Source: Aequorivita sp. CIP111184 (lineage in GTDB: Bacteria; Bacteroidota; Bacteroidia; Flavobacteriales; Flavobacteriaceae). From it: a DNA stretch of 64,000 bases. Of the stretch, positions 59,905-64,000 are shown piece after piece; the stretch's first letter is position 1, and each line of letters begins with the position of its first letter. The stretch covers positions 434,001 to 498,000 of the forward strand of contig NZ_UEFQ01000024.1 of NCBI RefSeq assembly GCF_900489465.1, written 5' to 3'. The notes beneath the pieces were generated by a model. That model was not told the origin of the DNA. It saw only the letters and a list, made by a program, of their open reading frames with translations, and did not search any database. Position numbers and translations under genes: made by a program.

Positions 59905-60746
59905 TGAAAAAACAAGCTTCACCCGAAAAAGAGATGTCCTTTTTGGACCATTTGGAAGAACTGCGCTGGCACTTGGTGCGTTCTACCCTTGCAGTATTAA
60001 TTGTAGCGGTTCTGGCTTTTATTTTTAAACGATTTATTTTTGACGTCCTTATTTTTGGTCCTTCAAAACCAGAATTTCCTACCTATACCATGTTTTGCGA
60101 AATTTCGCGCTCTCTTGGGATAGATACCTTCTGTTTTCAGGAGATGCCCTTTAGTATCCAAAGCAGAACAATGGCCGGACAGTTTTCGGCACATATGTGG
60201 ACATCAATTTATGCGGGAATCATTGTTGCCTTCCCCTATATTCTTTATGAATTTTGGAGATTTATTAGTCCGGGTTTAAAAGAAAAAGAACGCAAGTCTA
60301 GTCGTGGTTTTATTGCGATTGCTTCGGTACTTTTCTTTTTAGGAGTTTTATTTGGGTATTACCTTATTACACCACTGTCCATCAACTTTTTAGGAAACTA
60401 TCAAGTAAGCGAGGAAGTTATAAACCAGTTTGATCTGGAGAGCTATATTTCCCTAGTTCGCACCTCGGTATTAGCTTGTGGAATTGTATTTGAACTTCCA
60501 ATTTTAATGTATATTCTTACAAAAATAGGCTTGGTAACACCAGAAATTCTTAGAAAGTATAGAAAATTCGCATTAATTATTGTCTTGGTCCTTTCTGCAG
60601 TGATCACGCCGCCGGATATTGTGAGCCAGATAATTGTAGCCATCCCAATACTTATTCTTTATGAAGTGAGTATCTATATTTCAAAAATCGTGATCAGAAA
60701 CCAGTTAAAGGAAGAGAGAAAAAGAAAAAAAGAACAAGGTCAATAA
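59904..60746 (+). CDS. tatC: Sec-independent protein translocase TatC
   Basis: 280 residues with six membrane helices. Receptor component of the twin-arginine pathway. The N-terminal FLDHLEELRWHLVRS carries the conserved Glu and Arg, and FWRFISPGLKEKERK follows helix 2. An insert in the first periplasmic loop (about 45-80) is usual for Bacteroidota. No tatA is in the window. Coupled to the isomerase gene. Confidence 0.96.
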   Translation: MKKQASPEKEMSFLDHLEELRWHLVRSTLAVLIVAVLAFIFKRFIFDVLIFGPSKPEFPTYTMFCEISRSLGIDTFCFQEMPFSIQSRTMAGQFSAHMWTSIYAGIIVAFPYILYEFWRFISPGLKEKERKSSRGFIAIASVLFFLGVLFGYYLITPLSINFLGNYQVSEEVINQFDLESYISLVRTSVLACGIVFELPILMYILTKIGLVTPEILRKYRKFALIIVLVLSAVITPPDIVSQIIVAIPILILYEVSIYISKIVIRNQLKEERKRKKEQGQ

Positions 60747-60802
60747 AAGAGAAAATATTCTAAATCAAAAAAAAAGGTAACCTTTTACAATTTATACTAA
60801 AG

Positions 60803-61156
60803 ATGAAAAATAATATAGTTGAGGAATTCAATGCCTATCGCGAAAAGATGAATGATAAGATGCTTGCCGATAATAACAAAATCATCAAGCGTATTTTTAA
60901 TTTAGATACCAACGCCTATATGGAAGGTGTACTTCCAAAGAAGATGAAAGAATTGCTTGGTTTAGGCAATTCATTGGTACTTCGCTGTGATGACTGCGTG
61001 CGGTACCATCTGGAGGAATGTCACAAATTAGGCCTTACCAAAGAAGAAGTGGTTGAAGGAATGAGTATTTCATTACTTATTGGTGGAACAATTGTTGTTC
61101 CGCACTTACGCAGGGCATTTGAATACTGGGAAGCATTGGAAGCGCAAGAATCTTAA
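60803..61156 (+). CDS. Carboxymuconolactone decarboxylase / AhpD-like protein
   Basis: 117 residues, all-helical. The redox pair C62-x-x-C65 and His69 (RCDDCVRYHLEEC) match the AhpD-like active site, so a peroxidase-linked thiol role is likelier than lactone decarboxylation. GGTIVVPHLRRAFEYWE is the family end. It lies between tatC (56 bases) and lptB (60 bases). Confidence 0.88.
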   Translation: MKNNIVEEFNAYREKMNDKMLADNNKIIKRIFNLDTNAYMEGVLPKKMKELLGLGNSLVLRCDDCVRYHLEECHKLGLTKEEVVEGMSISLLIGGTIVVPHLRRAFEYWEALEAQES

Positions 61157-61216
61157 TTTTTTCTTAGGAAAATTATATAGTACATTTATCGTTTTATCTA
61201 CGGAAACAAATACCGA

Positions 61217-61957
61217 ATGAAGCTAAAAGCCGAAAATTTAATGAAATCCTATAAAGGCCGAAAGGTTGTAAAGGGTATTACCGTTGAAGTGAACCAAGGT
61301 GAAATTGTTGGTTTGCTCGGGCCGAATGGTGCGGGAAAAACTACCTCCTTTTACATGATTGTTGGGTTGATAAAACCCAATGGCGGCAATATCTATTTGG
61401 AAGGAACAGAAATCACCAAATATCCAATGTACAAACGGGCTCAAAACGGAATTGGCTATTTGGCACAGGAGGCTTCGGTTTTTAGAAAATTGAGTGTTGA
61501 AGACAATATTTTAAGCGTTTTGCAACTTACGAAGCTTTCCAAAAAAGAGCAACGCGCCAAAATGGAATTGCTTATTGAAGAATTCGGTTTAGGTCATATC
61601 CGTAAAAGTCGGGGTGATCTTTTAAGCGGTGGCGAAAGACGTAGAACCGAGATTGCTCGTGCCTTAGCAACCGACCCACACTTCATCCTTCTCGATGAGC
61701 CTTTTGCGGGCGTTGACCCTGTGGCGGTTGAAGACATTCAGCGTATTGTGGCGCAACTAAAAAACAAAAATATCGGTATTCTTATTACCGATCACAACGT
61801 ACAGGAAACGCTGGCAATTACAGACAGAACCTATTTAATGTTTGAAGGTAGTATTCTAAAACACGGCATCCCCGAAGAGCTTGCCGCAGACGAAATGGTT
61901 CGGAAAGTATATCTTGGGCAGAATTTTGAGCTTCGTAAGAAGAAGTTGGAGTTTTGA
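61217..61957 (+). CDS. lptB: LPS export ABC transporter ATP-binding protein
   Basis: 246 residues. Energises LPS extraction from the inner membrane with LptFG. Walker A GPNGAGKT at residues 35-42, signature [15 protein letters not shown], Walker [15 protein letters not shown] and switch His in [10 protein letters not shown]. The LptB-specific [11 protein letters not shown] is present. The stop at 61957 lies 8 bases before the left end of the GxxExxY element, so the gene is intact. Confidence 0.96.
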
Positions 61958-61968
61958 AAACAACTTTT

Positions 61969-62092
61969 AACCACAAAGGACACAATGGTTGCACAAAGTT
62001 CACTAAGCCCTTACCTATTTTATGCTTTAGGGTGTTTTTATGGGCCTGACTTTTGAACCACAAAGGACAAAAGGGTTGCACAAAGTTCACTA
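61969..62092 (+). repeat. Two 37-base direct repeat units (AACCACAAAGGACA type)
   Basis: Copies at 61969-62005 and 62056-62092 differ at 2 of 37 positions and start 87 bases apart. Each contains AACCACAAAGGACA and GGTTGCACAAAGTTCAC. Confidence 0.85.
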
Positions 62093-62103
62093 TGGTTTTT
62101 AAT

Positions 62104-62484
62104 TCACAACTCTCCATTAATCACTCTTTTAATACCGTGCTTTAATAAACTTACATTAAAATTTATAAGTAGCCCAAGCTTAAAACCACCGAGCCTCATA
62201 TAGGTAAGTGTTTGAGCTAAATGAACATTGTTCAATACTTCCACGCTTTTTATTTCGATAACCACTTTATTTTCAACTAATAAATCAATTCGATATCCAA
62301 CCTCTAATTTTACTTCTTCAAATATTAGGGGCATAGGTTTTTGTTTTGCAACTGACAAATCTTCCTTTGTTAGTTTATAAAAAAGACATTATTGGTATGC
62401 AGACTCCAACAATCCAGGACCAAGTGCCTTATGAACTTCCTAAACACTGCCTATAATCTTATTTGCTATTTGGTTTTCAGTCAT
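62104..62484 (-). pseudogene. GxxExxY protein (PD-(D/E)XK nuclease-like), two nonsense codons
   Basis: Full reading of 127 codons from the ATG at 62484: MTENQIANKIIGSV, stop (TAG, 62440-62442), EVHKALGPGLLESAYQ, stop (TAA, 62389-62391), then an open 3' part to 62104. The motif GPGLLESAY (G-x-x-E-x-x-Y) and the nuclease-type YRIDLLVENKVVIEIKS (Asp and ExK) identify the family. The second Met-initiated 84-codon frame cannot make the full domain. The function of the family is unknown. It is enclosed by the inverted repeats of the element. Confidence 0.85.
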
Positions 62485-62526
62485 TACAATTAAATTTAAC
62501 AAACTGATTTAAACAAATTTAAATGT

Positions 62527-63309
62527 TCACGGAGATTTCTTTGTGCTCTTTGTGTCTTCTTGGTGTTCTTTGTGGTTAAACAGGGAAAGCAATATATAAA
62601 GCAGAATAATAAAAGGTATTGCCAAAAACTTCAGAAATACTAAAAGCACAATACAAAGAATTAAAAACACATAGCGAACGGCGTTGCTTTTAAAATCCCA
62701 GGTTTTAAATTTTAGCGCAAAAAGCGGAATTTCGGCATTCAAAAGTATGCAGCTTAATAAAGTCATTCCTATCAAAAACCATTGATTTAAAATTATACTT
62801 TCTGCAAATTCAGAATATTGAAACTGTAAAATTAAGGGTAAGCTTAAAATGAGAAGTGTGTTTGCCGGCGTTGGAAGACCAATAAAACCAGAAGTTTGTC
62901 GCGTATCTACATTAAATTTTGCCAAGCGGTACGCAGAAGCTATTACAATTAAAAGTCCAATTAAAGGCATATAATTTTTGAATCCCACATTCCAACCATC
63001 CAAAGAAAAAGTATCCGTTAAGGTTTGCATTTGGTGGAAATAGGACAAATTAAACATTTGAAACATTACAACCCCCGGCGCTACGCCACTAGTAATAACA
63101 TCTGCCAAGGAATCAAGTTGAAGTCCTACTTCACTTTGAGCATTTAGCAATCGCGCAGCAAGGCCATCAAAGAAATCGAAGAAAATTCCTAAAAAAACAA
63201 AAAAGGAAGCGGTTATCAAATCGCCTGAAACGGCAAAAAGTACAGCTACGCAGCCGCAGAGTATGTTCAGGGAGGTTATGATGTTTGGAATTTGTTTTGT
63301 CATATTCAT
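62527..63309 (-). CDS. pssA: CDP-diacylglycerol-serine O-phosphatidyltransferase
   Basis: 260 residues, about eight helices. Makes phosphatidylserine, the precursor of phosphatidylethanolamine. The CDP-alcohol motif D48-G-x2-A-R-x8-G-x3-D66-x3-D70 (DGLAARLLNAQ ... GLQLDSLAD) is complete. The last 16 residues (NHKEHQEDTKSTKKSP) and the stop are read from the ACCACAAAG repeat at the right end of the GxxExxY element, so the C-terminus has been replaced or extended by it. Start Met1 or Met3. Confidence 0.93.
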   Translation of the reverse strand: MNMTKQIPNIITSLNILCGCVAVLFAVSGDLITASFFVFLGIFFDFFDGLAARLLNAQSEVGLQLDSLADVITSGVAPGVVMFQMFNLSYFHQMQTLTDTFSLDGWNVGFKNYMPLIGLLIVIASAYRLAKFNVDTRQTSGFIGLPTPANTLLILSLPLILQFQYSEFAESIILNQWFLIGMTLLSCILLNAEIPLFALKFKTWDFKSNAVRYVFLILCIVLLVFLKFLAIPFIILLYILLSLFNHKEHQEDTKSTKKSP

Positions 63310-63365
63310 TTCTTCGGTAAGTATTTTAGAGTTGATTCTCTATTAGTGAAAACATTCTCTCCCAA

Positions 63366-63385
63366 CCTCTCTTTCAAAGAGAAGG
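63366..63385. repeat. Small imperfect inverted repeat upstream of pssA
   Basis: CCTCTCTTT and AAAGAGAAGG around a single base, with one mismatch. It resembles dispersed small palindromes of flavobacteria. Low support. Confidence 0.3.
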
Positions 63386-63537
63386 CGCTTTACAAGACTG
63401 TTTTCTTAATATAAATTGAGATTCAGTGTAAAAATAACAAAGTATTTCCGTCCAAAGCTATCAAAACACAATATGTGCATAAATTTAAAGTTTACTATTC
63501 TGTAAAATAGTGCCATATTTGTCCAAATTTTTAAGCT

Positions 63538-64000
63538 TGAAAGAGAAAATTTTACTCCTTTTACTACTTGTTTCGGCTACGCTGAGTGCTCAGACCGTAC
63601 GTAAGTATTCCAACGAATTTATGAACATTGGTGTAGATGCCGCAGCCTTCGGAATGAGCAATGCCGTGGTAGCTTCCTCTTCCGATGTAAATTCGGGTTA
63701 TTGGAATCCTGCAGGTTTAGTGAATCTTGAGGACAAGCAAATCTCTTTGATGCACGCCTCTTATTTTGCAAATATTGCGAACTATGATTACGCTGCATTT
63801 GCAATGCCTCTTGACGATAGAAGTGCCGTTGGTCTTTCTGTAATCCGTTTTGGGGTAGATGATATTTTGAATACTACCCAATTGATAGACGACGAAGGAA
63901 ATATTTCCTATGATCGTATCAGCAAATTTTCTACTGCAGACTATGGCTTTACGTTTTCATACGCAAGAAGACTGCCGTTAGATGGCTTAAACTATGGTGT
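63538..64000 (+). CDS. PorV/PorQ family outer membrane beta-barrel protein, 5' part
   Basis: Open to the window edge, 154 codons visible. Signal peptide (KEKILLLLLLVSATLSAQ) followed by NEFMNIGVDAAAFGMSNAVV and SGYWNPAGL, the hallmark start of PorV/PorQ (FadL-like) proteins of the type IX secretion system. The start is TTG at 63538; an in-frame GTG at 63511 would lengthen the signal. It fits the T9SS cargo genes at 14-17 kb. Whether it is PorV, PorQ or another paralog needs the rest of the gene. Confidence 0.85.

Follow-up and report, generated by a model that had tools for sequence, protein, structure and literature searches.

A decayed GxxExxY nuclease gene between inverted repeats in Aequorivita: a putative member of a REP/RAYT-like family of small mobile units

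How does a nuclease-like gene come to lie between inverted repeats that enclose no transposase? The question is raised by a 615-bp element that separates lptB from pssA in a 64,000-nt stretch of the genome of Aequorivita sp. CIP111184 (contig NZ_UEFQ01000024.1, positions 434,001 to 498,000; hereafter, the window). The initial annotation described it as a GxxExxY gene bounded by inverted 18-base ends and proposed that such genes belong to a mobile or repeat-propagating system, in which the protein acts on its own repeats. We consider it probable that the element is what decay has left of a small mobile unit borne on repeats, and that GxxExxY proteins and their repeats form a self-spreading system resembling that of the repetitive extragenic palindromes (REPs) and the REP-associated tyrosine transposases (RAYTs), with an unrelated nuclease as its enzyme.

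The ends, the gene and the placement between lptB and pssA are real, as judged by exact end matches, a profile match and the borders of the open reading frames (ORFs). The left end, TTTAACCACAAAGGACAC (61966-61983, forward strand), and the right end, TTTAACCACAAAGAACAC (62563-62580, reverse strand), both agree with TTTAACCACAAAGRACAC without mismatch, and a third match with two mismatches lies at 62053-62070; by chance, 0.24 matches are expected per window, and three or more were obtained in one of 100 shuffles. The inverted arms exceed these 18-base ends, being 42 nt in length and 76% complementary (Table 1), and the element starts 8 nt past the lptB stop codon. An Rfam scan of positions 60000-64000 gave no match.

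The assignment of the gene to the GxxExxY family also stands: an 84-aa open piece matches PF13366 (PDDEXK_3; E 6.5e-24) and TIGR04256 (GxxExxY; E 3.2e-25), and the GxxExxY profile scores lie above the curated cut-offs (135.4 bits against 22; for the open piece, 88.8 against 35). What does not stand is its integrity: a TAG and a TAA stop interrupt the full frame, and the window's copy, which is the sole GxxExxY match in its genome, is a pseudogene within a decayed copy of the element. Across 17 sequences, Asp63, Glu73, Lys75, Gln87 and Tyr91 are invariant, constituting a PD-(D/E)XK core with QxxxY, and GxxExxY is predicted to be a short PD-(D/E)XK nuclease family with a Cas4-like fold. The best match in a sequence search of the PDB had an E of 0.35, defence-system profiles gave weak matches to Cas4 and PDC-S02 only, and PHROGs gave weak matches only. 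The view that no transposase is enclosed is borne out for this gene, which by profile is PDDEXK_3, neither a transposase nor of the tyrosine (Y1, HUH) type, other short frames inside the element being unscanned.

Evidence for movement comes from 28 genomes of the genus (probably Aequorivita), in which four orthologous sites were compared and the allele states were judged by eye; gene-free alleles were found at all four, including lptB-pssA, where the initial annotation had proposed a search for empty sites. At the lptB-pssA site, the gene is present in 10 of 26 loci and absent from 15, with no pssA being found beside lptB in the remaining one. Of the 15 gene-free loci, seven contain CACGAAT units, another seven lack both these units and a repeat chain, and the last (L159) carries a short, gene-less inverted repeat of the window's kind. 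In another relative (G218), a stop-free GxxExxY gene occupies the site between closely similar ends. The exact 18-base end is not universal, each protein subfamily having its own flavour of a shared unit. Some 11 kb downstream, at locus C, the element is absent from the window's genome, and six relatives have the gene with its arms, two of them also with gene-less palindromes. Locus A was viewed in 22 of 27 matching genomes, two of which, including the window's own, lacked the anchor; the 20 readable genomes comprise six with the gene element (some decayed), six with a gene-less palindrome and eight with nothing. Locus B was viewed in 19 of 23 matching genomes, two again without the anchor; among the 17 that were readable, three have the gene (truncated in one case where the contig ends), one an internally deleted remnant, three palindromes, four half-arms and six none of these states. 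At both loci A and B, the insertions sit immediately past a stop codon. At the level of sequence, these allele states support mobility of the element.

Other repeats were seen at the same sites. In the element-free alleles of locus B in G000 and G307, and partly in G313 (L238, L239 and L236), there is a different palindrome resembling GGTCGAGCGCAGTCGAGA, which indicates that several repeat families share intergenic sites; the window holds no exact match to GGTCGAGCGCAGTCGAGA. Repeats of the CCACGAATTCACGAAT flavour (L151, L155 and L198) form gene-less palindromes at lptB-pssA, and in G303, they flank a GxxExxY gene approximately 10 kb from lptB.

The association between gene and repeats extends well beyond the genus. 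We took the 80 top-ranking GxxExxY loci among 572 relatives of a single query, a set therefore biased towards the kin of that query, and scored each without reference to a motif, as the best ungapped inverted match between the 300-nt flanks on either side; one locus with a 23-nt flank (L133) was dropped. A score of at least 14 was reached by 53 of 79 loci. Of 367 other ORFs in the same contigs, which were defined mechanically as ATG frames of 90-1000 aa and surely include some non-genes, 10 did so, as did two of the 331 random intervals and none of the 395 shuffles; this is in keeping with the anticipated enrichment of inverted repeats around these genes. Scores of at least 18 occur in Bacteroidota, Verrucomicrobiota, Planctomycetota, Acidobacteriota, Chloroflexota, Cyanobacteriota, Ignavibacteriota, Hydrogenedentota, Desulfobacterota and Pseudomonadota (phyla assigned from record titles); the single archaeal locus (L067) scored 8.5. 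In the window's own family, 18 of 31 loci reach 14 on flanks of 600 nt, a count that has no matched control. Visual inspection shows each arm to consist of 7-base units that match or resemble CRCRRAG and follow one another at 8-9 nt, and TTAACC or TTCACC is often found at the outer end. When this chain was itself scored, both flanks pointed inward with at least 4 at 47 of 78 loci (two were dropped), the control being 58 of 986 single windows; because the unit was derived from the same loci, the claim of association rests on the motif-free test. Among the controls, a 415-aa ORF from Dyadobacter has strong flanking inverted repeats at two loci (L121 and L083; scores 37.5 and 21.5), and possibly represents another small element.

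GxxExxY genes are widespread, being present in 85 of the 299 genomes sampled from the family. The window's end was rejected as a universal marker: the 19-mer AACCACAAAGRACACAAAG, allowing two mismatches, occurs in 30 of the 85 GxxExxY-positive genomes and 61 of the 214 negative ones among the 299 sampled from the family (p 0.27). Most of its matches look like chance; one negative genome (G103) has 18, many of them arrayed. Direct arrays of related units were seen there (G103:C70) and at G060:C11:67480, G301:C3:331263 and G302:C1:2348625, with spacings of approximately 109, 110, 123 and 242 nt.

Similar repeats are also dispersed without a gene. A single 17-mer (at most one mismatch) occurs 0 to 71 times per genome of the genus, compared with 0 to 3 times for the reversed pattern. 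Many of the repeat pairs are divergent, lie 23-28 nt apart and can form hairpins; five such 110-nt stretches fold at -36 to -47 kcal/mol using RNA parameters. Of 30 divergent pairs counted by eye in G024 and G301, two of which are beside the gene of L006, 29 have the same type, CAC or CGC, in both arms. Repeats were also sought in 24 genomes reached via the cross-phylum loci, 23 of them outside Bacteroidota (by title) and mostly picked for their repeat-bearing loci, and an excess of at least 3-fold over the reversed control was found in 18 (maximum 212 against 27). Ten GxxExxY-negative genomes of the family together gave 14 matches, and the reversed control 17.

The covariation of repeat and protein, which the initial annotation had put forward as a check, is seen at two scales. 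Within the genus, about seven arm flavours were distinguished by eye, each going with particular protein subfamilies. Excluding four partial loci from the 30 available left 26, and of their 325 pairs, 41 from homologous sites were dropped; for non-orthologous copies in different genomes, the arms are alike (score of at least 14) in 62 of the 66 pairs whose proteins are at least 65% identical, and in 16 of the 214 less similar pairs. The four pairs that come from within one genome are listed separately: one, with an identity of 0.57, has an arm score of 10.0, and the others, with identities of 0.79-0.88, score 14.5-24.5. Across 106 loci, drawn from the 80 cross-phylum loci and 28 from the family, with the gene itself removed and 84 of 5565 pairs dropped (homologous flanks, identity of at least 80% or short arms), protein identity correlates with arm similarity (rho 0.33, or 0.31 after GC), a value beyond all 999 permutations. 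On this evidence, repeat flavour appears to track protein subfamily, as it does in REP/RAYT systems.

Several observations weigh against a self-spreading unit of this kind. In the motif-free test, 26 of the 79 loci fall under the threshold, and the presence of GxxExxY does not predict the window's end motif across the 299 family genomes (p 0.27). A 27-mer with fixed 9-9 spacing (three mismatches) showed no visible family-wide excess over its reversed control, the pattern being poorly chosen in that spacings of 8 are common. Six of the 24 genomes lie below the 3-fold excess. The genome of the genus that is richest in repeats (G318; 71 matches) has no GxxExxY match, nor does G323, with nine repeats, and over the 28 genomes the correlation between GxxExxY matches and repeat counts is weak (rho 0.37, p 0.054; rho 0.52 without G318). 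Host relatedness may account for part of the covariation. At the sites read, where intergenic divergence blurs the borders, inspection by eye revealed no clean target-site duplication. Finally, the window's own genome is nearly devoid of dispersed copies (three by the 17-mer; three to four matches overall): searching it with the end and the protein, as had been suggested, yielded four matches (at most one mismatch) to a 15-base end, three of which fall within this element, and no second GxxExxY gene. As an observation in its own right, G318 (L155, L216, L245 and L292) is a single-contig genome, and it may have lost its driver or be served by another mover.

This last genome is better accommodated if the nuclease is a homing passenger, the palindromes being an independent REP-like family moved by other machinery, and GxxExxY cutting gene-less repeats and being copied into them by repair, in the manner of a homing endonuclease. 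The gene arms and the gene-less copies within the genus do have flavours in common, and G336 contains inward repeat pairs that are tens to some hundreds of nt apart, their gene content not being checked pair by pair. At locus A, though, the gene-bearing element and the gene-less palindromes differ in flavour at one and the same site, such that simple gain or loss of the gene by those palindromes is not the explanation; we know of no other driver of these repeats. We regard a homing passenger as unlikely.

Less likely still is that a Y1 transposase, either of the host or of the IS200/IS605 type (IS, insertion sequence), moves the repeats in trans, with GxxExxY as cargo. REPs have been attributed to IS200/IS605-related transposases in the accessible text of one study (PMC2817692), and PF01797 matches are present in 19 of the 28 genomes of the genus. 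The other nine lack one (three of these being <90% complete), yet they include G024, G299 and G307, with 39, 14 and 25 repeat matches, respectively, and covariation with the type of GxxExxY protein is not expected of mere cargo. The gene could also be otherwise immobile, and the inverted repeats regulatory or recombination-prone sequence beside it that is kept similar through inheritance and gene conversion. The placement just past stop codons at loci A and B, and the fact that no target-site duplication was seen, speak for this reading; the gene-free alleles, the dispersed gene-less copies and the many insertion contexts speak against it, and we consider it very improbable.

Returning to a unit that spreads by means of its own nuclease, the protein would recognize its own repeats, most likely in hairpin or single-stranded form, and cut them; copies would then enter intergenic sites by insertion or through gene conversion, and the gene-less palindromes would be non-autonomous passengers. 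It is from sequence comparisons that we infer this action of the nuclease on the repeats. A broader proposal, to which we give somewhat less than even weight, is that the GxxExxY proteins are the founding enzymes of an undescribed class of tiny mobile elements, present in about ten phyla, whose hairpin repeats, built of 7-base units, spread through a Cas4/RecB-like nuclease without a transposase, giving rise to large REP-like palindrome populations with the gene-less copies as non-autonomous members. If true, a class of bacterial intergenic palindromes would be accounted for, and a RecB/Cas4-type nuclease would be seen to fill the place that a Y1 transposase has in REP systems. The tie to dispersed repeats makes the function of GxxExxY directly testable, and a ready specificity panel is at hand in the nuclease subfamilies of a single genus, paired with their repeat flavours.

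Among 50,697 phage records, one query found no GxxExxY gene, and among 72,556 plasmid records it found eight; an alignment gave three IMG/VR loci. One paper tabulates a GxxExxY protein for an algal virus genome (PMC12085832, Table 1), indicating that the family also occurs in eukaryotic viruses. The accessible text of published papers naming GxxExxY gives it no role, in repeats or otherwise, and no description of the association was found in the literature searched, which covered few subscription papers and no preprints. A search with short sequence words gave, among the matches listed, what look like unrelated sequences, and 15-mers led to a paper on fish eDNA.

The element also bears on its neighbour, since the pssA frame enters the right arm and terminates in NHKEHQEDTKSTKKSP. 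The tail of pssA in the window reads SLF-NHKEHQEDTKSTKKSP (62527-62580), whereas element-free relatives have SLFWKVKK or similar, and the tail in L159 is like that of the window; by this comparison, the repeat has supplied a new C-terminal tail to a host enzyme.

Table 1. Features of the element and its borders (positions within the window)
Feature	Position	Strand	Basis
Whole inverted-repeat element between lptB and pssA	61966..62580	.	End matches and arm alignment; contrast with 7 genus relatives
Left arm, chain of CACAAAG-like units	61966..62007	+	End matches and arm alignment
Second, direct copy of left arm (41 nt, 93%)	62052..62092	+	Arm alignment
GxxExxY (PF13366/TIGR04256) pseudogene	62104..62484	-	Profile match; in-frame stops near codons 15 and 32
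Right arm, inverted	62539..62580	-	End matches and arm alignment
lptB-like ABC ATPase gene, left border	61217..61957	+	Name lptB taken from the initial annotation
pssA reading frame, C-terminal tail read from right arm	62527..63309	-	ORF list, profile match, relatives' tails

Among known systems, Cas4 and other RecB-type PD-(D/E)XK nucleases differ from GxxExxY, which has a 117-aa core; to our knowledge, Cas4 is not carried by its own repeats. Miniature inverted-repeat transposable elements and insertion sequences are similar in that a gene-bearing unit and short gene-less derivatives have their ends in common, as with the internally deleted copy at locus B, and empty orthologous sites were found; in contrast, the enclosed gene here is not a transposase by profile, and no target-site duplication was seen at the blurred borders. 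The element also resembles REP/RAYT and REPIN systems: there is one gene between inverted repeats, gene-less hairpin repeats are dispersed, the type of repeat follows that of the protein and the locations are mostly intergenic. As described in the accessible text of two papers, the REP/RAYT gene is flanked by two inverted REPs (PMC2817692; PMC8266576), and the RAYT belongs to the tyrosine transposases and is related to IS200/IS605 (PMC2817692), whereas the gene enclosed here is, by sequence, a PD-(D/E)XK nuclease. The repeats differ likewise: a REP is a palindrome headed by GT(A/G)G (PMC2817692), whereas the arms described here are chains of 7-base units repeated every 8-9 nt, those in the window beginning TTTAACCACAAAG and having no such head.
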